Assembly (NCBI GenBank): GCA_014381825.1
Contig: JACNKX010000072.1
Span: 1-64,000 of the forward strand
Direction of reading: 5' to 3'
Length of the DNA: 64,000 nucleotides
Origin: Planctomycetota bacterium
Lineage (GTDB): Bacteria; Planctomycetota; Planctomycetia; Pirellulales; Pirellulaceae
Below, one piece after another: positions 158 to 10,088 of this stretch. A model generated the notes under the pieces. The model saw only the letters and a list, made by a program, of their open reading frames with translations. It was not told the DNA's origin and searched no databases. The translations under genes were made by a program, and so were the position numbers. The stretch's first letter is position 1; every line of letters begins with the position of its first letter.

Positions 158-1285
158 TCACATCGAGCCAAGGTATCGGTACTCGTTTGCTTTGCGTTGT
201 GCACGGTTGCCACTGCTGAGCTTCTTCAGGAGTCCCATGTTGCAGAAGTCTTGCAACCAGCGCCACGCCTGTACGTGAGTTACCCCAATGAGTTGGCCAG
301 CTTCCCTAACTGCCAAGAAGAATTCGCCGCTGTCTCGCGCCAACTCTCGGCATAGTGATGCCAACAGCACGTATTTCTCCTTTGACGAGAATGATACTTC
401 CGGTGGTGGTGGTCTCCGTTGTGCTGCCTCGAACGCAAGTGTCACGCGATTAGTGTCGGCACCATGTATCACAACTGACCACTGGCGGCAAAAGTCTCCC
501 CACGTCACCTCGAAGTCCCTTGTACCGATGTAAGGCAGGGAGATTGTGTGCCACTCCTGAACGACTTCGAGCAACGCCATCGCTGGCAAGTCCCGGGTAT
601 CGGGAATCGACTTCAACTCTCGAGCCAGCGCGAATAGCTTCTGGTTGCGGTGACCCGGTTTTGGAGGAATCGTTCGCCTGATCGCCAGCTTCACGCTAGG
701 CATGTAACACAGACACCTACGTCTAGCGTTGTCTTGTGTTGTCTGAGTTGTCTGCGCTGTCTGTGTTACATTGTTGCCAGAATCGGAATTCCAACTGTGA
801 CCAAGACCCGATTCGGGAAGGTCTATCACGGGAAAATCGCCCGGAATACCGTTGTGCCAGGAGTAGATTACGCCGGACTCGTGAACGGATTCGGGAGCAA
901 TCACGATTGCCTTGTCGCCGCGCAACTCGCCGTCGTCGAACGCGCGGGTCTTGATTGCGTCAGTTGATCGAGAGTAGACGTGATGCCCCCGGCTCGTGAT
1001 TGACGTAGGAAGCCGTTTCGCGAGTCCAGGGTGTCGACTGGCCCACTGGCGATATGAGCTCGCATCGTCGAAGTCACGAACCACAAGACCATCCGACGCA
1101 CTGCCACAAACGATGGCGATATTCTCGTGCTTTGGATCAGTGAACCACTCACGAACCTGCTGCTCACTCGGTCGTTGATCTTGATACTCGCGCCAACCGA
1201 CGGCTGGTTTCTTTGATCTGCTTCGCGCTGGCAACACGCATAGGCCGGCCTCGTGGTACGCGATAGCAGTTTCTAGTTGGTTCAT
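158..1285 (-). CDS. Bifunctional DNA primase/polymerase (prim-pol) of the integrative element
   Basis: The 375-residue product resembles prim-pol (AEP superfamily) replication proteins of plasmids and phages. The first ~170 residues carry the family pattern: an N-terminal AIAYHEAGLCVLP segment, a basic KKPAVGW, the acidic RDFDD expected to bind metal, then a glycine/histidine SRGHH motif and LRGDKAIVIAP. The C-terminal half (about 200-375) has no helicase Walker motif and looks like a helical DNA-binding region, so the protein probably needs a separate helicase. The ATG at 1285 has only a weak upstream AGGG. A TQT-rich hinge (about residues 173-184) separates the halves. The gene is the last of the minus-strand set seen here. 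Its likely role is to initiate replication of the excised element, or to prime for it. Confidence 0.75.
   Translation of the reverse strand: MNQLETAIAYHEAGLCVLPARSRSKKPAVGWREYQDQRPSEQQVREWFTDPKHENIAIVCGSASDGLVVRDFDDASSYRQWASRHPGLAKRLPTSITSRGHHVYSRSTDAIKTRAFDDGELRGDKAIVIAPESVHESGVIYSWHNGIPGDFPVIDLPESGLGHSWNSDSGNNVTQTAQTTQTTQDNARRRCLCYMPSVKLAIRRTIPPKPGHRNQKLFALARELKSIPDTRDLPAMALLEVVQEWHTISLPYIGTRDFEVTWGDFCRQWSVVIHGADTNRVTLAFEAAQRRPPPPEVSFSSKEKYVLLASLCRELARDSGEFFLAVREAGQLIGVTHVQAWRWLQDFCNMGLLKKLSSGNRAQRKANEYRYLGSM
731..766 (-). repeat. Four 9-bp repeats coding a Thr/Gln hinge in the prim-pol gene
   Basis: Four imperfect 9-base units (type TGTCTGNGN on the plus strand) lie head to tail in frame. 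They encode a run of Thr-Gln-Thr-like triplets between the prim-pol domain and the C-terminal part. Because the unit is a multiple of three, copy number could change without a frameshift. It is likely a flexible linker. Confidence 0.7.
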
Positions 1286-1400: not shown

Positions 1401-2834
1401 TCATTCGCCCTGCTCCCAGTCCATCGACTTCAGTGCCTCATGCACTGTATTGCGAACGCCATCCAAGAACGCCGCGTCGTTCGCCTCAGCTTCGACTTCG
1501 GCGTTGTAGAGATCGATATCGATGACCGATTCAATCGCCTCGGTCAGAATAGTCTGCAAGTCGCTTGGATCGAGAGCCTCCAGCTCAAACACGGTGTCAT
1601 CGCCGTGCTGCTCAACAAATCGGTCGTAGTTCACCGACGTGGTTTTCGCCGTCATCATCGGAGGCAGCTCATGCTCGGCAACCTGTTCCGCAGTGAGCGC
1701 TGCTTTGATCGGGTGGATGTTATCGATACCGAAATCGTCGCGCATCGATCTCGCGAACGAATGTGCAATTTGATCACCATCAGGATCAAAGTCGGATGCG
1801 ATCAGCAAAATTAGCTTGTTTTTGCCGCTGCGACGATAACGCTGTGCGATCTCGTATCGAGGCGGCAGGCTGCAATACCCTCTACCGCTCGTGAGTGGCA
1901 ATGTAAACTCTCCCGCGATCGGTCGGAGGATTGGCTCGACGGTATTCTTCTCGCAAATGATCTCAATGTGATGCGGCTGCGATTGCATCAGGTCGCGATA
2001 GTAGCCCTTCAAGAACGTGTCAATTTCTTGACGAATGAACCGCCGGGGATCTGGATAGACTTTCCAGGTGGTAACCGGGCGTGTTACATCAGCTATCGCA
2101 TTCCATGGGATCTGTCCTGTCAGTCGTGCCCGCGTCAACAGGTCTACGAGAGACTTGTAGCTCTTTGTTGTGTTGTTATATCGCGAGTTGGGCTTGCTCG
2201 CGTGCTTCAACGGCGGATCGTTCAACAACCCGTAGTGAATTCCGCGATCAGACAGCGGCCAAAATTGTCGCCGATCGTTGATGACTTTTAGGACGGCTTC
2301 GAGCATTGGCAGTTTTGCCCCGCTGATCTGGCAGCGATGCTTGTAGCCGTCGATCACGAACGCGGCCGTATCGACGATTGAGAGGTCATCACGATACTGG
2401 CTCAACGCACGGTGAGATTCAGTTGGGTTCGCGTTGACCAACTCTTCACGTAGCTTGACGGATAGGCTCTTGTCACGCTGTCGGTTGTATTCGCGCAAAA
2501 GCAAAACAAATCGGTCGATGTCATCGGTTCTTCGGATCGACTCAACTCGACACGGAACATTATTCAGCCCCAACCGCGTCGCGGCTGCATAGCGACGATG
2601 TCCGGACAGAATGTACCCATCCTCGCTCACGACAATGGGCTCGCGTAGGCCATGTTCGGTGATGCTCTCGGCGAGTGCAATGATCTCGGGATCATCGGGA
2701 TCGATAACGCCATAGATGTCGTCGTTTTCTGGTGCAGGGCGGATTTCGGAGAGCTTCTTCTCAAGAACTGGGACATGACCCGGTTTTGACTTTCGTCGTT
2801 GCGATTTTGGTCTCTTCGAGGTGGCTCTAGCCAT
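1401..2834 (-). CDS. ParB-like nuclease fused to a Spo11/TopoVI-A-like TOPRIM region
   Basis: The protein has 477 residues. Residues ~20-105 are a ParB/Srx-type domain with the signature GHRRYAAATRLGL, after ALAESITEHGLREPIVV. The second half is not a normal ParB C-terminus. PLSDRGIHYGLL and LLTRARLTGQIPW resemble the winged-helix region with a Tyr found in TopoVI-A/Spo11-like proteins. It is followed by EIICEKNTVEPIL, TSGRGYCSLPP and the acidic ASDFDPDGD, which fit a TOPRIM fold (Glu, then Asp-x-Asp). I therefore read it as a fused DNA-binding or nucleotide-hydrolysing ParB-like domain plus a topoisomerase-like DNA cleavage or nicking module. An alternative is partitioning or relaxation of the element's DNA without cleavage. 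The ATG at 2834 overlaps the upstream small gene by 8 bases, suggesting coupled translation. ParB is sure; TOPRIM is likely; activity is inferred. Confidence 0.75.
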   Translation of the reverse strand: MARATSKRPKSQRRKSKPGHVPVLEKKLSEIRPAPENDDIYGVIDPDDPEIIALAESITEHGLREPIVVSEDGYILSGHRRYAAATRLGLNNVPCRVESIRRTDDIDRFVLLLREYNRQRDKSLSVKLREELVNANPTESHRALSQYRDDLSIVDTAAFVIDGYKHRCQISGAKLPMLEAVLKVINDRRQFWPLSDRGIHYGLLNDPPLKHASKPNSRYNNTTKSYKSLVDLLTRARLTGQIPWNAIADVTRPVTTWKVYPDPRRFIRQEIDTFLKGYYRDLMQSQPHHIEIICEKNTVEPILRPIAGEFTLPLTSGRGYCSLPPRYEIAQRYRRSGKNKLILLIASDFDPDGDQIAHSFARSMRDDFGIDNIHPIKAALTAEQVAEHELPPMMTAKTTSVNYDRFVEQHGDDTVFELEALDPSDLQTILTEAIESVIDIDLYNAEVEAEANDAAFLDGVRNTVHEALKSMDWEQGE

Positions 2835-3138
2835 TACCGCACCGCCTTTTTTGCTCGGCGTTGCGGGTGTCTATTCCCGGCAAACTATCGAGATATTGGT
2901 GAACGACCCACAAGTCAGCGTCCGACGCTTTGCGGCTGGAGAGCATCCAGCGGAGATGGGAAATCGGAACGTCACATACGGCACGGCCTGCGTATCTGCC
3001 TCCAGCGAGCGGAAATGATGCGAGAGATGAGCGGCGACGTTGTTTCTGCCGCTGCCGCCGCCCTTTGTTTTTCTTTAGCTTGCCTTGCGAAGTTGAACGA
3101 GGGTTGCTTGATGGCACTTCTGAATTGATAATAATCAT
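2827..3138 (-). CDS. Small basic protein with DUF3820-like segment
   Basis: The 103-residue product has a very basic N-terminal stretch (about 18-36, rich in Lys/Arg/Gln), then GGRYAGRAVCDVPISHLRWM followed by a Leu/His helix. That second part resembles the DUF3820 pattern (G-K-Y-K-G...P..YL.W) found in small phage and replication accessory proteins. The gene overlaps the start of the ParB-like gene by 8 bases and lies on the same strand, which supports it being real. Its function is unknown; nucleic acid binding is a guess from the charge. The basic segment is of low complexity, so the start could lie further in. Confidence 0.55.
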   Translation of the reverse strand: MIIINSEVPSSNPRSTSQGKLKKNKGRRQRQKQRRRSSLASFPLAGGRYAGRAVCDVPISHLRWMLSSRKASDADLWVVHQYLDSLPGIDTRNAEQKRRCGNG

Positions 3139-3262
3139 GGATCTCCGATCTACTCCCCCTTTGTCCCCAGACGAGGAGGAGCATCAGAACTTGATTGATG
3201 CCCGGTGACGCTGGTGATGTTGCCGGGCATTTCTCATGCGCCGACCGAGTTGGTGAGGGGAT

Positions 3263-3463
3263 TCATTCCGAGAACGCGCGAGCGATTGCCTCGAGCGAGG
3301 TGCGTCGCGAATTGCCCACCTTGATTGATGCGACCCGACCGGAAAGCAGCCAGCGCCAGACGGTAGGCGCACTTACGCCGTAATGTGTCGCGGCTTGCTT
3401 GACGTTTACGATCGTGTCGTTGATGGGGTCGATGTTAGACTTCGACTCGATGGTAGCTGACAT
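3263..3463 (-). CDS. Excisionase-like helix-turn-helix protein
   Basis: The 66-residue product has the MerR/excisionase-type winged helix. The line VKQAATHYGVSAPTVWRWL is a clear helix-turn-helix, followed by the wing SGRVASIKVGNSRRTSLEAI. Proteins of this type next to an integrase usually direct excision and bend the attachment DNA, and often repress the integrase. The ATG at 3463 is chosen over an upstream start because AGGAG lies 9 bases before it. The upstream extension would also run through a terminator hairpin. Between it and the integrase gene lies that terminator, so it probably has its own promoter in the short gap or relies on readthrough. Confidence 0.8.
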   Translation of the reverse strand: MSATIESKSNIDPINDTIVNVKQAATHYGVSAPTVWRWLLSGRVASIKVGNSRRTSLEAIARAFSE

Positions 3464-3502
3464 TTTGCGCTCTCCTAGGGTTTGAAAAACCTGTGAGAGC
3501 AC

Positions 3503-3536
3503 AAAAAAAGAGCTACACACAGGATGTGTGTAGCTC
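3503..3536 (-). terminator. Rho-independent terminator after the integrase gene
   Basis: An 11-bp perfect stem (GAGCTACACAC pairing with GTGTGTAGCTC, 5-base loop, 3510-3536) is followed on the minus strand by seven T residues (3509-3503). It would stop the integrase transcript 85 bases after its stop codon, before the excisionase gene. The stem shares the half-site TGTGTAG with the palindrome in the integrase leader at 4719-4735. Confidence 0.85.
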
Positions 3537-3620
3537 CCGTTTAAGCTACATGAGAAAAACGCAAATGGTGATCAGTTCATCGCGCGTCGACCGACAATTT
3601 ATGACATTCGTCAAATACTG

Positions 3621-4688
3621 TCAACCAATTTCGCGTGCGATCATCGCTCCTTTGGCGTTATCAACTTCGGCGTAGACTTGTGTGACGTCTGCATGACTGT
3701 GACCGAGTAGCGTTTGAGCACCGTCTAACCCGAATCGCTTACGGACCTCGGTGCCTGCTGAATGCCTTAGCTGATTCGGGTTGAACTTCTCAACTTTTGC
3801 GTACTTACAGGCCAAGTGCACGGCCTCACGGTAGGCGTGACGGTCCCACGGTTTCCCACTTGGACGACGGAAGCAAAGTTCGTCCGCTGCTCGCAACAAA
3901 TATGGCAAAAGCAACCGCTGCGCCTTCGGGCCAATCCAAATTACGCGCCGCTTACCGTGATGCTGTGTTTTGTGTGCTCGTGGCACGTACGTCCAAACGT
4001 CGCCGCTACGATCAATGTCACCGGGATGCATGATCCACAGTTCGCCAGGACGTGCGCCAGTTAAGCGTTGAATCCTTAGCATTGCCGCCAGGTCATTAGG
4101 CATGTGTTCCACGGCTGCGTCGACCACGGCATCTTCGACCGGCTGTATCGGATCGGGATCTCTTGCGTTTGTCCGACCAGCTTTCAAACCAGATATGGCA
4201 GTCAGTTTCTGCCAGACCTGCGGACTGACGAGTTCCTTCTCGACTCCCCACTTATACATGCGGGTGATTCGACCAGCGCTCTTGTTAATGAACTTGCGGG
4301 AGTTGCCAATGGCGATCCACTTCTGGCGCAACCCGTCAATGGCGGACGGCGTGAGTTTATCTGCTGGCAGGTTCGCGATGCTGCTGATCTTATTCCGTAA
4401 ATAGACGTGAGACTGATACTCCTGCGTCGGCTCGCCGTTGCGTCGATAGTAGTTCTTGCAGTGCTCCAAGTAGCACGCAAACAACTGGTCGACGGTTAGA
4501 GTTGTCCCCGGTTTGGTGTCTTCCTCTTCCGAAAGTTGCCGATCATTAGCGAGCCAAGCACCGATTACCCTTTCATACTTCGCTCGGCTTTCGTCCGTGC
4601 CATACTTTCCAAGATAGACGAACTTACCGTTTAGTCGGACGTAGGCTTGGCCGGTGGCCTTGTGGTGAGAATACGACGGAAGTTTCAT
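3621..4688 (-). CDS. Tyrosine site-specific integrase
   Basis: The 355-residue protein is a tyrosine recombinase. It has an N-terminal arm-binding part (VRLNGKFVYLGKYGTDESRAKYE), a SAM-like core-binding domain (about 60-170) and a catalytic domain. Visible active-site residues are Arg in LTGARPGELW, Lys in HGKRRVIW, the His/Arg box in NPNQLRHSAGTEVRKR, His in LLGHSHADVT and the nucleophile in VYAEV. It should catalyse integration into and excision from the adjacent tRNA-Leu. The start at 4688 is preceded by AGGAG at good spacing, whereas the longer reading frame to 4778 has none. The leader contains a strong inverted repeat that could control its expression. The gene appears intact. Confidence 0.93.
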   Translation of the reverse strand: MKLPSYSHHKATGQAYVRLNGKFVYLGKYGTDESRAKYERVIGAWLANDRQLSEEEDTKPGTTLTVDQLFACYLEHCKNYYRRNGEPTQEYQSHVYLRNKISSIANLPADKLTPSAIDGLRQKWIAIGNSRKFINKSAGRITRMYKWGVEKELVSPQVWQKLTAISGLKAGRTNARDPDPIQPVEDAVVDAAVEHMPNDLAAMLRIQRLTGARPGELWIMHPGDIDRSGDVWTYVPRAHKTQHHGKRRVIWIGPKAQRLLLPYLLRAADELCFRRPSGKPWDRHAYREAVHLACKYAKVEKFNPNQLRHSAGTEVRKRFGLDGAQTLLGHSHADVTQVYAEVDNAKGAMIAREIG

Positions 4689-4754
4689 GGCGGTTGCTCC
4701 TATTTCCTGAAAGTCGGATGTGTAGTGACTACACACAAATTTCAGGCAACCGCC
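4689..4754. promoter_or_regulatory. Nested inverted repeats in the integrase leader
   Basis: A 17-base palindrome TGTGTAGTGACTACACA (4719-4735) sits inside a larger inverted repeat. The right arm TTTCAGGCAACCGCC (4740-4754) matches the left side GGCGGTTGC (4689-4697) plus CTGAAA (4707-4712), with nine unpaired bases holding the ribosome-binding AGGA. The palindrome fits a protein operator, and the transcript could fold into a hairpin next to the start codon. Both roles are inferred. Confidence 0.6.
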
Positions 4755-4769
4755 GCTCGTCGTGAGCAG

Positions 4770-4798
4770 GTTAAACACCGTAAGTGCTTATGCCTCAA
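4770..4798 (-). promoter_or_regulatory. Possible sigma-70-like promoter of the integrase gene
   Basis: Read on the minus strand, TTGAGG (4798-4793) and TTTAAC (4775-4770) are 17 bases apart, four of six matches each to the consensus boxes. The location between the tRNA end and the leader repeats is sensible. Such weak matches also occur by chance. Confidence 0.3.
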
Positions 4799-4802
4799 TA
4801 AG

Positions 4803-4886
<84 letters not shown>

Positions 4887-5215: not shown

Positions 5216-8200
5216 TTACCTGCACGAACTTCTTGCCGCATCAACTCGCTCACGGACAGCGTCGGCTTCATCCGCTCGCAATTCCTCCTCCAGCCAACGG
5301 ACCAGATTCTCGTAGTTCCCTGCCATGTCTTTAATGGTGGCTGTTGCCGTTCGATTGTCTTCGTGAATCGCCAATGCCTTTTGCATATGTTCAATCGCCA
5401 GTTTGCGATTGTCGTTTTGCGCAAGGGCAACGGCGAAGTTGCGGTGCGACCAGAATTGCGATTGCTGGTCAACCATCGCGAAGGGCCGCGTGGAGTCTTC
5501 GAGCAGACGGAGCGCCGCATGTGAGGCTTGAAACGCGCTGATGCCATCGGTCAGTCGATCCTTCAGCGAAAACGTAAACAGGTTGCCGAGGTGCCCATTC
5601 GCGTAATAGAGCACTGTCACGATGGTCGTGTCCTGGGGAGCAACTTCGTTGCCAATCGCAACAACGCCCTTGAGCAGATCCTCCGCCGCTTGATACTGGC
5701 CTTCCTCTCGGAGCCGGTAGCCGACCTCGGACAGCAATTGCAATCGTCGTCCAATGGGCTCTTGGGCAACCATGGAGAAAGGCACACCGATTGGGTGGAC
5801 GTGCGTTAACAGCCACCTTGCTTCCGATGACTCATCGTTTGTCGCCGCTTGACCGGTGCTGAGTCGGGCCAACAGGGCATCGCAGCGTGGACGCCAGTCG
5901 TTGTACGCGTCGCGCGATGAATCTCTGCTTAGCGTGATCAGCTGTCTCACGGATTCGAGCGGCTCCAACTTGTGAAACTCGTTTGACTGCCAATCCAAGT
6001 CGATGCTTGACAAACGTGCGTGTACCTGTTCGAGATCCCATACGACGACATCGCCGGCGTTTTGTGCAAACGCAATTGACTTTCCGTCGGGACTCCAATC
6101 GACCGACCAAAACTCGACGGCCCAAATTGGAAGACTGAAGACTTCCTGCATGTCGTCAATTCGAAATATCTTTTCGCGGCAAAGTAAAAATTCTTTGTTC
6201 GGTGAAAGCGTGACAGGGACACTCACAGGCGACTCGCTAACTCGATCGCAGCGGCGCTGCTCAAGGTCCCAGACTTCAAAGTGACCGTCAGCAATTCCAA
6301 GCCTCTCTTCCGAAAGAAAGACCACACTTCGGTAGCTGGCGGGCGTTGTAACGTCGATCAAGAAATCGTCATTCGGTTTATCGAAGTCGTGAACGCAAAT
6401 CCTCGAACCCGACCGGTAAGCAAGTTGGCGTCCCGATGGGCTCCACGTTGCAACAACCGACCCAACTTCGTCGGCCAGGAGCAATCGAGCCGAAACGTTC
6501 GCAGGGGAACGGCCATGCGGCGTTGGCGGCCTCTTACGATCTAGTTGCCAGACCCAAAACTTCCCTCGATTCCAACCTGTCACCACCACCATGTCCGACT
6601 GCGGACTGAAACGAATCAAGTTAGGGAACTCGCAAGGATCCGTCTGGCCGACGAAGGATCCAGTCGCGACGTCCCAAAACTGGACACACCCCAAATCGTA
6701 GACCGCGAGCAGACTGCCGTCCGGACTCAAGTCGCCTTCAGAGCCAGGAATCTCCAACAATCGTTCCAACGTGCGCGCGTTCCACAAGCGAATCGTGTTG
6801 TCGCCCCCGCTGGACATGATTAGCTGTCCGTCTGGACTGAAGCGGACCGCCTTGGCAACATTGCGATGGGCAACGATGGCTCGGCGTGCGGTCCCGCGGA
6901 CATTCGAGCAACGCAACTTGTCGGTCCCTAACCACAAAGCGTGATTGCCCGGCGTCGATACTTGTAGATATGCTCCATCATCACGTTTCTTGAAGCGAGC
7001 AAGCGACTGCCTTTGTCGGACGGAGTACCAGATGTACTCGCTCTCATTGCTTAGAATGACGTCGCTTGAGCCGACAAACGACTCAACACCACAACTTCCA
7101 ATGTTATCGAGACGAACAACTAGTTCGCCTGAAGTGCGATCGATAATCGTAGCACCGATGTGGCCCGCACAGGCAATGAGCCGCCCATCTTGACTGAAGA
7201 GAACACTATTGAGCGCACCACAACTCGGATTGATGCTTGTTTCAAGTTCGCCCGTGTGAATGTCGTAGATTGAAATGGTATTACTCTGCGCCCCATGCTT
7301 CTCCCAGACTTCCCGATCCAACCAAGAATAGGCAACGACCAAATGGCTATTGGAGATATCAAACCGCATCGAAAACGGGATGTTAGCTAACGGAGCCATC
7401 AGTGCTTTCGCCGGATCGCCAGATCCGGTGGCGTCGATGGGACGGATGGAAAACCGAGTTGCCTCTGAGGTATCATCGTTCTTGAGCAGAGCGACCATGC
7501 CAGTCAGCGCCGGAGGCCCACTGGTCGTCCTCCACTCGGCATTCTCGATGACGGCTTCCGGCAACCCGGTGACACCAAGCATGATTGAGCCGTCTGGTGT
7601 CGACCGCAGGCCAAGAAAGTCGCGAGGCTCCGGCAGCTTCACTTGGGAAACTTGCGACAACGTGTCTTCCGCGAAATTCCAAATATTGAACGAGCGGCAG
7701 AATGGTCCGTGTGTTTGCACGCGGTCATGATCCAATTGCTGAATGGCAACAATCGCGTCGTCCTGGACTTTCCGGCGCAGCAGTTCCTGGTGCTTTTCCA
7801 GGTCGAAAATAATCAACTGTCCGTCACTGAACCCCGCAAACAAGAATCGTCCATCCGCGGTAACGTTCGCGGCCGTGACGATTGCACCACCCGTTGCCAA
7901 AATCATTGGGTCGCGTGCAGCCAAATGCCCCAAGCTGCTGACCGCCAGCTGGCGAAGACGAGACGGATCTCGTAACGGCGTGTCGAGGTCACGTGCCTGC
8001 TCAAGTGCCTGCCAAACTCGAGGCCCGTAGCCTTCTGGGCGTGTTTGATTCAGGTAATCTGCTTCGCCGGTCAACGATGTATAAAGTATGTTGGCGACTT
8101 CTTTTCGTGCTAGTTCTGTTGTATCGAGCGCCGCTGCTAACCTCATCTGATACCAGATTCCGCCTGCCAGCAGTGTGACGACTGCGATTGCCACAGACGC

Positions 8201-9484
8201 GGATAAAGTGGCGACCAGCGGACGACGTCGCGACCATTTCGCGAGACGTTCGACACGCCCAACAGGCCGAGCTTGGATTGGCTCGTTGTTGATGAAGCGT
8301 TTCAAGTCAGCGGCAAGATCCATGGCGCTCGTGTAGCGGCGCTGAGGATCCTTGTGGAGGCACTTCAGGCAGATCGTTGCAAGATCCACAGGAATCGTCG
8401 GGTTCAATTGTTGCGGTGAAACCGGTTCTTGCTCGATCACTAGACGGAGTGTGTCGATCGCATTCGCGGCTTGGAATGGTGGGCGACCGGTGAGCATGGA
8501 GTACAACGTCGCGCCCACGGCATACACATCGGCAATCGAACCGACACTCGTTGAATCGCCGACAGCTTGTTCGGGCGCCATGTAGCTTGGCGTGCCAAGG
8601 ATCTGGCCGGTTCCAGTGAGTTCGCTACCGGTGTCGGTCCGCCGCGCGAGACCAAAGTCCGTGATGCGAGGCTGCCCCGTTCTGTCGATCAACACATTTA
8701 GAGGCTTGATGTCACGGTGGACGACGCCACGATCGTGGGCGTAGGCCAAAGCTTCGCACATGTGAGTTGTGATCTCGGCAGCGTCGAGTGGCTCGAGTGG
8801 CTTGCGTTGAATGCGAGCCCACAGACTTTCGCCATCCACGAAGCCCATTGTAAAATACGGCAAACTTTGGTACTCAGCTACATCGTAGACAGGCACGATG
8901 CCTGGATGATCAAGCTGTGCGGCGGCCTCTGCCTCGATTCGGAATCGTTCGCGCTCTTCTTTCTGTGCAAATGGTCCTGCCAACATCATCTTCAGTGCTA
9001 CAACGCGGTCCAGTTTTTCATGCCGCGCACGAAAAACGATGCCCATGCCGCCACGGGCAATCTCTTCGAGGATTTCATAATCGTCGATGCGAGCAAGCGA
9101 GAGAGCATCGGGCAATGCACTGTTGCCGTGACTCGTATTACCAGCAGACGAGGATGCACCAGAGAGGTGAAGGGATTTGGCACGCGCGACGTTTTCATTG
9201 CGATCAGATGCGCCGACGCTTGCTTCAGCCCTTTGCCCTCCTGTCGTCTCTTGGTCCATTGCCTCTGGCAATCGTCGCACGCGCTCAAGCAATTCCAACG
9301 CCCGCTTCGCGCGGACAAGTTGAAGATCGTTCGATCGGTCATCGAGGACGGCTTCATCGGCTACGGAACCATCAACGAGGGCTTCGTGCATCGCCGCCAA
9401 ACGCGAGGCAAACTCGTCACTGGGAAGATTGTGCATCGATTCCGAATTCGCTTCACGCTTACTCACTGCATCTTTCCAGTTCAT
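5216..9484 (-). CDS. Membrane Ser/Thr protein kinase with WD40 propeller and TPR-like tail
   Basis: The 1422-residue protein begins with ~130 flexible residues, then a Hanks-type kinase domain (~135-400). Key parts are the glycine loop ARGGMGIVFRA, catalytic Lys in VALKMM, HRDIKPLN, DFGLA and MAPEQ, so it should be active. A single membrane span follows (about 419-447, after a basic RLAKWSRRR). The rest holds WD40 repeats (clear examples FSPDGQLIMSSGGDNTIRLW near 880 and WSPDGKSIAFAQ near 1130) and TPR-like helices (~1255-1422). The kinase faces the cytoplasm in such proteins. The start at 9484 overlaps the end of the sigma factor gene by 26 bases, so the two are likely co-translated and may act together, with the kinase controlling the sigma factor. 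That link is known as a genomic pattern in planctomycetes; the mechanism here is inferred. Confidence 0.9.
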   Translation of the reverse strand: MNWKDAVSKREANSESMHNLPSDEFASRLAAMHEALVDGSVADEAVLDDRSNDLQLVRAKRALELLERVRRLPEAMDQETTGGQRAEASVGASDRNENVARAKSLHLSGASSSAGNTSHGNSALPDALSLARIDDYEILEEIARGGMGIVFRARHEKLDRVVALKMMLAGPFAQKEERERFRIEAEAAAQLDHPGIVPVYDVAEYQSLPYFTMGFVDGESLWARIQRKPLEPLDAAEITTHMCEALAYAHDRGVVHRDIKPLNVLIDRTGQPRITDFGLARRTDTGSELTGTGQILGTPSYMAPEQAVGDSTSVGSIADVYAVGATLYSMLTGRPPFQAANAIDTLRLVIEQEPVSPQQLNPTIPVDLATICLKCLHKDPQRRYTSAMDLAADLKRFINNEPIQARPVGRVERLAKWSRRRPLVATLSASVAIAVVTLLAGGIWYQMRLAAALDTTELARKEVANILYTSLTGEADYLNQTRPEGYGPRVWQALEQARDLDTPLRDPSRLRQLAVSSLGHLAARDPMILATGGAIVTAANVTADGRFLFAGFSDGQLIIFDLEKHQELLRRKVQDDAIVAIQQLDHDRVQTHGPFCRSFNIWNFAEDTLSQVSQVKLPEPRDFLGLRSTPDGSIMLGVTGLPEAVIENAEWRTTSGPPALTGMVALLKNDDTSEATRFSIRPIDATGSGDPAKALMAPLANIPFSMRFDISNSHLVVAYSWLDREVWEKHGAQSNTISIYDIHTGELETSINPSCGALNSVLFSQDGRLIACAGHIGATIIDRTSGELVVRLDNIGSCGVESFVGSSDVILSNESEYIWYSVRQRQSLARFKKRDDGAYLQVSTPGNHALWLGTDKLRCSNVRGTARRAIVAHRNVAKAVRFSPDGQLIMSSGGDNTIRLWNARTLERLLEIPGSEGDLSPDGSLLAVYDLGCVQFWDVATGSFVGQTDPCEFPNLIRFSPQSDMVVVTGWNRGKFWVWQLDRKRPPTPHGRSPANVSARLLLADEVGSVVATWSPSGRQLAYRSGSRICVHDFDKPNDDFLIDVTTPASYRSVVFLSEERLGIADGHFEVWDLEQRRCDRVSESPVSVPVTLSPNKEFLLCREKIFRIDDMQEVFSLPIWAVEFWSVDWSPDGKSIAFAQNAGDVVVWDLEQVHARLSSIDLDWQSNEFHKLEPLESVRQLITLSRDSSRDAYNDWRPRCDALLARLSTGQAATNDESSEARWLLTHVHPIGVPFSMVAQEPIGRRLQLLSEVGYRLREEGQYQAAEDLLKGVVAIGNEVAPQDTTIVTVLYYANGHLGNLFTFSLKDRLTDGISAFQASHAALRLLEDSTRPFAMVDQQSQFWSHRNFAVALAQNDNRKLAIEHMQKALAIHEDNRTATATIKDMAGNYENLVRWLEEELRADEADAVRERVDAARSSCR

Positions 9485-10088
9485 CCTGGAGTCGAATAAT
9501 GGCTCGCGACCACAGCTTTCTGGCGGCCTCTGTCGATCGCCCCATTCGTTTACCGATGTCGACAAATGAAAGCTGTTGCCAGTTCCTTAGCATGATTACT
9601 TCGCGGTCATCTGACGCCAAGCAATCCAATGCTGCTTGCAAGCGATCGGCCTCTTCATGAGCGATTGCATCGGTTGCTGGTGTTGCGTGTGCCGCGGCGA
9701 CTTGTTCCGCTCGCAGCCGCACACTGCCTACATCGATCCCCTGTTCACGGAATACGTCACGGCCCGCGGTGCGAAATCGCCGCCGAGTCTCCTTGATGTC
9801 GTTGAGCAAGATGCCGCGCAGCCAAGCCAGCAACTCATCTCGGCTCTTGCCTCGAAAGTCGCCGATGCAACGTTGGGCCGAAAGCATCGATTCTTGAACA
9901 AGATCCGACGCCCCTGCCTTTGGTACGAGTCCCGACTCCAATTCCTGATTGGCGATGAGCAGCAAATAAGCGCGACAGTCCTGCAACAACTTACCCACCG
10001 CTTCTGCCGAGCCATCCTGGGCCTCAACGAGCAACACCTCAAACCAGTCGTGGTGTTGTTTATCTCGTTCAGACGCATTCGAGTCCAT
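9459..10088 (-). CDS. ECF-type RNA polymerase sigma factor linked to kinase
   Basis: The 209-residue product has sigma region 2 (about 40-100, including ASDLVQESMLSAQR and FRGKSRDELLAWLRGIL) and region 4 with a helix-turn-helix (LSFVDIGKRMGRSTEAARKL near the C-terminus). It lacks regions 1 and 3, so it belongs to the ECF group. In planctomycetes these are often encoded beside kinases, as here. The ATG at 10088 with GAGGA upstream is preferred to a TTG 33 bases earlier. No anti-sigma factor gene is next to it. Divergent transcription from the giant dockerin gene, 178 bases away, makes that gene a candidate target; this is inference only. Confidence 0.9.
   Translation of the reverse strand: MDSNASERDKQHHDWFEVLLVEAQDGSAEAVGKLLQDCRAYLLLIANQELESGLVPKAGASDLVQESMLSAQRCIGDFRGKSRDELLAWLRGILLNDIKETRRRFRTAGRDVFREQGIDVGSVRLRAEQVAAAHATPATDAIAHEEADRLQAALDCLASDDREVIMLRNWQQLSFVDIGKRMGRSTEAARKLWSRAIIRLQDELERCSE

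Follow-up and report, generated by a model that had tools for sequence, protein, structure and literature searches.

Relatives of the A subunit of topoisomerase VI (Topo VI-A) and of Spo11 come in several arrangements. Host Topo VI is assembled from two subunits, Topo VIII is a single chain in the order B-A, and Mini-A is a Topo VI-A/Spo11-like protein of phages and plasmids that lacks a B subunit. The function of Mini-A is given as unknown in PMC8084294, PMC8185306 records no archaeal Topo VIII or Mini-A as characterized at the time of that paper, and PMC11302465 describes Spo11 as using the same fold without strand passage. Here we describe a gene in a 64,000-nucleotide stretch of DNA from a Planctomycetota bacterium (assembly GCA_014381825.1, contig JACNKX010000072.1, positions 1 to 64,000 of the forward strand; hereafter the window) whose product joins a ParB-type N-terminal domain to a Mini-A core. 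The protein belongs to a conserved two-part family in which the catalytic residues of the core are invariant, most nucleotide-contacting residues of ParB are kept, and the genes reside in small integrated elements. We tentatively read the fused protein as a whole, at slightly under an even chance, as an element-encoded, nucleotide-regulated DNA-breaking enzyme of an excision/replication module.

The fused protein shares features with each of several described systems. Like Mini-A, exemplified by that of Pseudomonas phage NP1, it has a core of ~310 amino acids (aa) with the Tyr/Glu/Asp-x-Asp residues, direct sequence similarity to phage- and plasmid-encoded members, homology to Topo VI-A, coding by mobile elements and no B subunit alongside; unlike it, it carries a ParB domain, which eight stand-alone Mini-As of 277-313 aa lack. 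Topo VIII likewise places a nucleotide-binding domain and an A-type core in one protein, on plasmids and integrated elements, but its domain is of the GHKL rather than the ParB/sulfiredoxin (Srx) type, and no Topo VI-B-like sequence was found in the 57 loci of the fused family. Host Topo VI has the same A-subunit catalytic motifs but consists of two subunits, with similarity at the profile level only. The ParB, Noc and KorB CTPases and PadC share the fold of the N-terminal domain and most residues that contact cytidine triphosphate (CTP), whereas the fused family lacks the parS-binding and C-terminal domains, has His in place of the hydrolysis Glu, and showed no ParA in its loci. MksG, part of an SMC-like system, also has a TOPRIM-containing DNA-cleaving core, but no SMC-like partners occur among the neighbour families listed for the fused genes. 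Takahashi et al. (2020) reportedly separate Topo VI, Topo VIII and Mini-A by a C-terminal motif. The parts of the fused gene, in window coordinates, are as follows.

1401..2834, minus strand: fused ParB_N - Mini-A protein, 477 aa (open reading frame, ORF; ParB_N Pfam match; phrog_6247; 57-member alignment)
2466..2771, minus strand: ParB/sulfiredoxin-type N-terminal domain, residues ~22-123 (Pfam; PDB sequence matches to Spo0J/ParB; Foldseek matches to ParB/Noc)
2592..2603, minus strand: GHRR, residues 78-81, corresponding to ParB P-motif 2 with the Glu of GERR replaced by His (alignment)
2469..2486, minus strand: N-x-Q-R-x-K, residues 117-122, corresponding to ParB P-motif 3, ENxxR-like without the Glu (alignment)
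1404..2342, minus strand: Mini-A (Topo VI-A/Spo11-like) module, residues ~165-477 (tblastn to phage and plasmid Mini-A; hhalign; model)
2232..2234, minus strand: candidate catalytic Tyr201 in R-x-x-H-Y (invariant; aligns with R-G-x-Y-Y of Topo VI-A)
1947..1952, minus strand: TOPRIM Glu295-Lys296 (invariant, 57/57)
1785..1793, minus strand: TOPRIM Asp348-x-Asp350 (invariant, 57/57)

A ParB-type domain fused to a Mini-A core

The first-pass annotation of this DNA proposed that one protein combines a ParB-type domain and a Topo VI-A/Spo11-like module bearing Tyr, Glu and Asp-x-Asp, and this is borne out by the single 477-aa ORF, its domain matches and an alignment of 57 fused proteins. ParB_N is recognized at residues 50-103 (Pfam E 5.5e-7), residues 220-452 match phrog_6247, 'DNA topoisomerase' (PHROG, E 1e-36), and the GHRRY, EK and ASDFDPDGD motifs stand at residues 78-82, 295-296 and 346-354.

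We are highly confident that the C-terminal ~310 aa belong to the Mini-A family. A tblastn search with the fused protein matched 91 phage records, all below 60% identity and none (0/91) covering 80% of the query in one place, and all 40 of the records listed match the core; among them is the Mini-A of Pseudomonas phage NP1 (E 3e-20), the example given in the legend of Fig. 4A of PMC7614492. The 32 plasmid records also include none covering 80% of the query (0/32), and three match the ParB part only; an archaeal plasmid gene annotated 'Topo Mini-A' (LC711082) was matched at E 2e-10. Annotated regions were opened for 6 of the 123 phage and plasmid records. An hhalign comparison of 73 Mini-A rows with 32 rows of Topo VI-A, drawn from the phylum of the host, aligned the profiles over 205 columns (E 1e-4, probability 57.5), pairing R-x-I-H-Y with R-G-x-Y-Y, E-K-N-T-V with E-K-D-T-V, and D-F-D-P-D-G with D-N-D-P-W-G. 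Probabilities for the three controls (one profile reversed, two unrelated) were 0.07-0.32, and the same comparison with only four Topo VI-A rows gave 1.4 (E 0.037). In Spo11 and Topo VI-A the catalytic tyrosine is the second Tyr. Ready-made domain models detect the core less readily: the general Toprim model matches 4/57 fused proteins (best E 0.0067). Pfam, NCBIfam and PADLOC yielded no model that covers the ParB - Mini-A fusion. Capture of the host's own Topo VI-A was considered as a source of the core and rejected, since a whole-genome search with the fused protein misses host Topo VI-A and their kinship is at the profile level only.

The full-length AlphaFold2 model, built from the 57-row alignment (mean predicted local distance difference test score, pLDDT, 90.6; predicted template-modelling score, pTM, 0.71), has a ParB-like domain to about residue 120, helices at 124-133 and 137-151, and then the Mini-A core, which when modelled alone reached pLDDT 93.2 and pTM 0.84. 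It contains neither a parS-binding helix-turn-helix (HTH) nor a C-terminal ParB dimerization domain, the two helices at 124-151 leading directly into the core. In a Foldseek search of the PDB with the full-length model, ParB, Noc and KorB structures lead, the MksG nuclease 8b7f ranks 27th (E 1.3e-3) and M. mazei Topo VI-A 29th (E 2.7e-3). In a viral structure library ParB-type proteins lead as well; the two best, unnamed, span the whole query at a root-mean-square deviation of 23-28, and no topoisomerase is named among the 50 matches listed. In the comparison of a predicted structure with Topo VI-A that had been suggested as a check, Topo VI-A is thus matched in the PDB, but weakly (rank 29 at full length; TM score 0.32 for the core). 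The evidence from fold is consistent but weak; sequence gives the Mini-A identity its main support.

Relatives were sought in 98 related genomes, 392 genomes of the phylum, and the collections genome_contigs and viral_contigs. Eight of the 392 phylum genomes matched at E <= 1e-30, four of these (the window's own genome included) over both parts; genome_contigs yielded 58 loci, and viral_contigs 12 with an alignment query and none with a single-sequence query, so that the earlier blank reflected a limit of the query. Sixty-seven full-length candidates were reduced to 56 at 90% identity, which with the window protein gave 57 aligned, non-redundant, full-length fused proteins; the full-length filter removes members without the ParB part, and partial or split copies were left out (for example L045, L046, L053, L086, L087, L111, L113, L122, L126 and fragments in L047 and L115). 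By record title the loci are mostly from Planctomycetota, with others from Syntrophales/Syntrophorhabdus, a Verrucomicrobia, a Victivallales and a Deltaproteobacteria, most of the records being metagenome-assembled genomes, in which small contigs can be misbinned. The complete chromosome of Limnoglobus roseus (NZ_CP042425.1) carries two copies of the fused gene (L101 and L102), ~76 kb apart.

Tyr201, Glu295, Asp348 and Asp350 are invariant in all 57 proteins, so the Glu and the Asp pair, on whose conservation among homologues the first-pass annotation had laid weight, are kept throughout. Invariant core residues include R197, Y201, R237, D249, E295, K296, G319, D348, D350, G353 and E417, and residues of the ParB half that are invariant in 57/57 include N37, Y41, G78, R81, A84, N117 and K122. 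These eleven core residues remain invariant in a 65-row alignment of the 57 fused proteins minus L062 plus nine hand-picked stand-alone Mini-As. With 57 non-redundant fused proteins and invariant catalytic residues, the fused layout is not a product of chance. In a maximum-likelihood tree of the core from 56 fused and 17 stand-alone rows, the latter hand-picked and several of them on long branches, a branch supported at 98/97, and present in 100% of 200 bootstrap trees, separates all 56 fused rows from the stand-alone ones. The tree, from which the full-length filter keeps out any member that lost ParB, suggests one fusion event, with both halves long conserved thereafter.

Predicted nucleotide-contacting residues of the ParB half

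ParB_N was found in 56/57 fused proteins at E <= 0.1. The first-pass annotation called this half a 'ParB-like nuclease'; the ParB-type domain stands, whereas 'nuclease' is a family name and the conserved residues are, by alignment, nucleotide-contacting ones. According to PMC8367383, Caulobacter ParB mutants at R60, R103, R104, R139, N136, G79 and S74 bind CTP weakly or not at all, mutants at Q58 and E135 bind CTP and are defective in hydrolysis, and E102A is clamp-locked. In our alignment the positions of the fused family that correspond to CTP-binding residues are R80 (R103; 52/57), R81 (R104; 57/57), N117 (N136; 57/57), R120 (R139; 56/57), G62 (G79; 56/57) and S57 (S74; 42/57), and the surrounding motif residues are similarly kept (G78 57/57, H79 56/57, Q119 53/57, K122 57/57). 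GERR and ENxxR are not intact, being replaced by GHRR and mostly by Tyr/His/Cys/Phe-N-x-Q-R. The host's chromosomal ParB has GERR and ENLQR; in five proteins of the ParB-methyltransferase type the first motif reads GHTR and N-x-x-R is missing. Since most CTP-contacting residues are kept and the hydrolysis Glu is replaced, nucleotide binding by the ParB half is plausible, and hydrolysis of the ParB kind doubtful, as judged from the alignment.

Integrated elements and neighbouring genes

In the window the minus strand reads tRNA-Leu, integrase, HTH_17 gene, small ORF, fused gene and prim-pol.

4802..4886, minus strand: tRNA-Leu(CAA), the candidate integration site (ARAGORN)
4801..4829, minus strand: candidate attachment (att) repeat, 29 bp, at the 3' end of tRNA-Leu (second copy at G000:C213:3324-3352)
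3621..4778, minus strand: tyrosine integrase, 385 aa (Pfam Phage_integrase E 5.7e-15)
3263..3520, minus strand: small HTH_17 (excisionase-like) gene (Pfam HTH_17 E 1.4e-6)
2827..3138, minus strand: possible small ORF, 103 aa, its last bases shared with the start of the fused gene (sub-threshold Pfam match to PF12843, E 0.0044)
158..1285, minus strand: prim-pol, a primase-polymerase of the archaeo-eukaryotic primase (AEP) type, 375 aa (Pfam Prim-Pol E 1e-19)

That the gene is element-encoded, as first proposed, is supported by six relatives with both att copies on one contig; the window itself has an integrase and a tRNA-Leu. The six elements measure 6.1-9.9 kb, are bounded by repeats of 25-50 bp and occupy five kinds of tRNA gene.

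L043: 7.9 kb, tRNA-Ala, att 45 bp
L062: 6.1 kb, tRNA-Met, att 25 bp
L067: 9.4 kb, tRNA-Asp, att 50 bp
L088: 7.9 kb, tRNA-Cys, att 50 bp
L095: 9.9 kb, tRNA-Cys, att 46 bp
L097: 7.5 kb, tRNA-Glu, att 49 bp

A domain scan of 45 ORFs from the six complete elements, with 25 of 46 families listed, found integrase domains in six of these ORFs. The window begins at the end of its contig (C104), so that the far end of its own element is missing. The second exact copy of the 29-bp tRNA-Leu 3' end, at C213:3324-3352, is preceded by a diverged tRNA-like sequence, and contig C213 up to the repeat holds part of a very long ORF that by eye encodes a surface protein, so that C213 is only a candidate att partner. 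Another genome, G432, offers a prophage-like setting, with a primase gene and the genes of the two terminase subunits a few kb away from the fused gene.

An integrase lies within 4 kb of 30/57 fused genes, a prim-pol within 4 kb of 16/57, and a primase of any type tried within 4 kb of 22/57, several of these contigs being short. Integration genes are thus the commonest company, and a primase is frequent but replaceable or absent. The prim-pol neighbour to which the first-pass annotation had drawn attention is real in the window and recurs, but is not obligatory, and its candidacy as an obligate partner was rejected on the count of 16/57 loci. L062 is the one complete element with a prim-pol inside this 4-kb range. 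Neighbour families were taken from the 101 same-strand genes among 121 near neighbours, in two listings that each give 25 leading families (out of 33 in one, out of 92 in the other).

An HTH_17-type gene lies no more than 600 bp upstream in 25/52 fused genes with enough flank and downstream in 1/53. The profile for this count was trained from eight seeds (two upstream of fused genes, including that of the window, and six upstream of stand-alone Mini-As) and retrained on its matches; with seeds excluded, the upstream counts are 23/50 for fused and 1/11 for stand-alone genes. Stand-alone Mini-As with seeds included gave 7/17 upstream and 1/17 downstream, a link that rests mostly on the seeds; in Listeria phage LWP01 a gene annotated as excisionase directly precedes Mini-A. 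Six fused proteins (L044, L105, L106, L124, L125 and L133) have an extra N-terminal HTH segment, giving HTH - ParB_N - Mini-A; they form one branch (support 100/100), and none is in the upstream-HTH list, the flank of L105 being too short for that count. An HTH in cis in one branch and in trans in others is as would be expected of a targeting partner. The HTH types differ between cis and trans, and an excisionase is to be expected in an integrated element in any case.

Several further observations concern these elements and the host. In L043, positions 8690-8765 hold an 11-bp tandem array of five copies in register, ~300-400 bp upstream of the fused gene, possibly iterons. A stand-alone Mini-A lies in a ~10-kb repeat-bounded element at tRNA-Ser with a 44-bp repeat (L052:4569-14701, genome G025). 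A perfect 14-nt inverted repeat with a 42-nt spacer (window 702-715 and 758-771) falls inside the prim-pol gene past the Prim-Pol domain, and a 1449-aa ORF on the chromosomal side (window 5216-9565, minus strand), by eye a Ser/Thr protein kinase with WD-type repeats, adjoins tRNA-Leu. The host has a true Topo VI, with B and A side by side at G000:C37:160500-166000 (L148:420-2549 and 2613-3764), and TP6A_N occurs in 134/294 genomes of the phylum; PMC11302465 has already recorded a bacterial Topo VI from Pirellulales.

What the fused protein may do

By analogy with its relatives, the Mini-A core would act as a dimer in which Tyr201 of each subunit would attack one strand while Glu295, Asp348 and Asp350 would hold Mg2+, leaving resealable 5'-phosphotyrosyl breaks. 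The ParB/Srx-type domain would bind a nucleotide, most likely CTP, and so control dimerization or loading onto DNA, and the small HTH protein, whose gene lies just upstream, or its counterpart carried in cis by one branch, would probably guide the enzyme to element DNA. Together with the integrase and, where present, a primase, the enzyme would serve the excision/replication phase of small tRNA-integrated and some phage-like elements, where its most likely task would be to relax or unlink the replicating circle.

A more specific, and doubtful, form of this proposal makes the protein a CTP-switched, type IIB-like enzyme in which a ParB N-gate, closed as a clamp by CTP, replaces the GHKL ATP gate of Topo VI and Topo VIII. 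The ParB gate would be loaded onto element DNA, close around it and allow the Mini-A core to cut both strands, and the His that naturally stands in place of Caulobacter Glu102 would prolong the life of the clamp. The idea is attractive because the ParB domain takes the place in the chain that the GHKL gate has in Topo VIII; that it works as a gate is a proposal.

Several results weigh against a nucleotide-regulated DNA-breaking enzyme of this kind. The Pfam Topo VI-A/Spo11 and Toprim models do not match the window protein at E <= 1, the Topo VI-A/Spo11 Toprim model matches one of eight stand-alone Mini-As at E 0.009, below the cut-off, and a PDB sequence search with the Mini-A profile returned no Topo VI-A chain at E <= 10. 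In the Foldseek search with the core, Topo VI-A (E 0.014, probability 0.99, TM score 0.32) ranked second, below an unrelated protein (probability 0.63). In the ParB half, the position of Caulobacter E102 is His79 in 56/57, that of E135 (residue 116) is mostly Tyr/His/Cys/Phe, and no conserved Arg occupies that of R60, so that with the hydrolysis residues replaced the binding of nucleotide may be altered or absent. No primase of the types tried, prim-pol included, is recognized within 4 kb in L043, L067, L088, L095 and L097, five of the six complete elements, which leaves a replication role unproven. In the literature searched (PMC8185306 and PMC8084294), no Mini-A activity is on record. Topo VI-B is present in 11/14 fused-bearing genomes (the host and 10/13 others) and could act in trans.

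The last point is the mainstay of the least probable of the explanations weighed, in which the fused protein would be an alternative A subunit that borrows host Topo VI-B, chromosomally encoded in those genomes. Three of the fourteen (G475, G479 and G482) have no Topo VI-B detectable at E <= 0.001, so general dependence on it is unlikely; the core is joined to a ParB domain instead, and the fused protein and host Topo VI-A are related at the profile level only. The host Topo VI-B profile also found no match at E <= 0.1 in the 57 fused loci (783,925 bases); its positive controls, two host loci, were found, both being in the training set as well. Scarcely more probable is a role in partition or stability, with the ParB half as the working part and the Mini-A half reduced to a DNA-binding relic, a function that the first-pass annotation had entertained and that ParB_N in 56/57 proteins might suggest. 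A relic sits poorly with Mini-A catalytic residues invariant in 57/57, no parS-binding or C-terminal ParB domain follows ParB_N in the model, and no ParA was matched in the 57 loci by phmmer at 1e-5 with one planctomycete query, a search run without a positive control that a divergent ParA could escape.

A defence function, also raised initially, gained no support, and we consider it improbable that the protein is an MksG- or JetD-like, nucleotide-triggered TOPRIM nuclease that destroys competing DNA as a defence or inter-element weapon: the Foldseek match to MksG and a weak match of the phage PaMx25 Mini-A to DUF2399 (E 1.6e-4) point that way, but the sole PADLOC match is to the methyltransferase-type PDLC03229 over residues 44-98 of the ParB half, with none over the effector core, and the listed neighbour families include integrase, primase and HTH and no SMC-like loaders. 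In the main rival, possible though on the whole unlikely, the protein initiates replication: brought in by the HTH partner, it would act as a nuclease and cut the element's origin, and a primase or host polymerase would use the 3'-OH or the opened duplex, with no strand passage and with the ParB half merely positioning the enzyme. It fits the arrangement of the fused gene on one strand with xis-like and prim-pol genes, the HTH upstream (25/52) or in cis (6/57), the tandem array of L043 and the precedent of Spo11 (PMC11302465). It fits less well with PaMx25, whose Mini-A is part of a complete replisome module with no obvious need for such a nuclease, and no origin or cut site was identified, tandem arrays not having been sought systematically.

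Both halves of the protein are known, and we found no description of their fusion in the literature searched, which did not take in the founding Mini-A and Topo VIII papers, where it may be mentioned; in PMC5862659, on element primases, ParB and Spo11 have 0 occurrences. The first-pass annotation knew of no described system with this exact layout; the C-terminal module belongs to a family already described, Mini-A.

The fused family bears on how a Topo VI-A core works without an ATPase subunit. Here, in records from several phyla, such a core is fused for good to a nucleotide-binding domain of another kind, which raises the question of whether the core needs a nucleotide gate, and equally whether ParB-type CTP switching serves outside segregation and gene regulation. 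Should the ParB domain prove to be a CTP-closed gate, we know of no earlier topoisomerase-like or Spo11-like enzyme whose switch is a nucleotide different from ATP. For the small elements of Planctomycetes and some other bacteria, the family points to a new kind of on-off control over DNA cutting.

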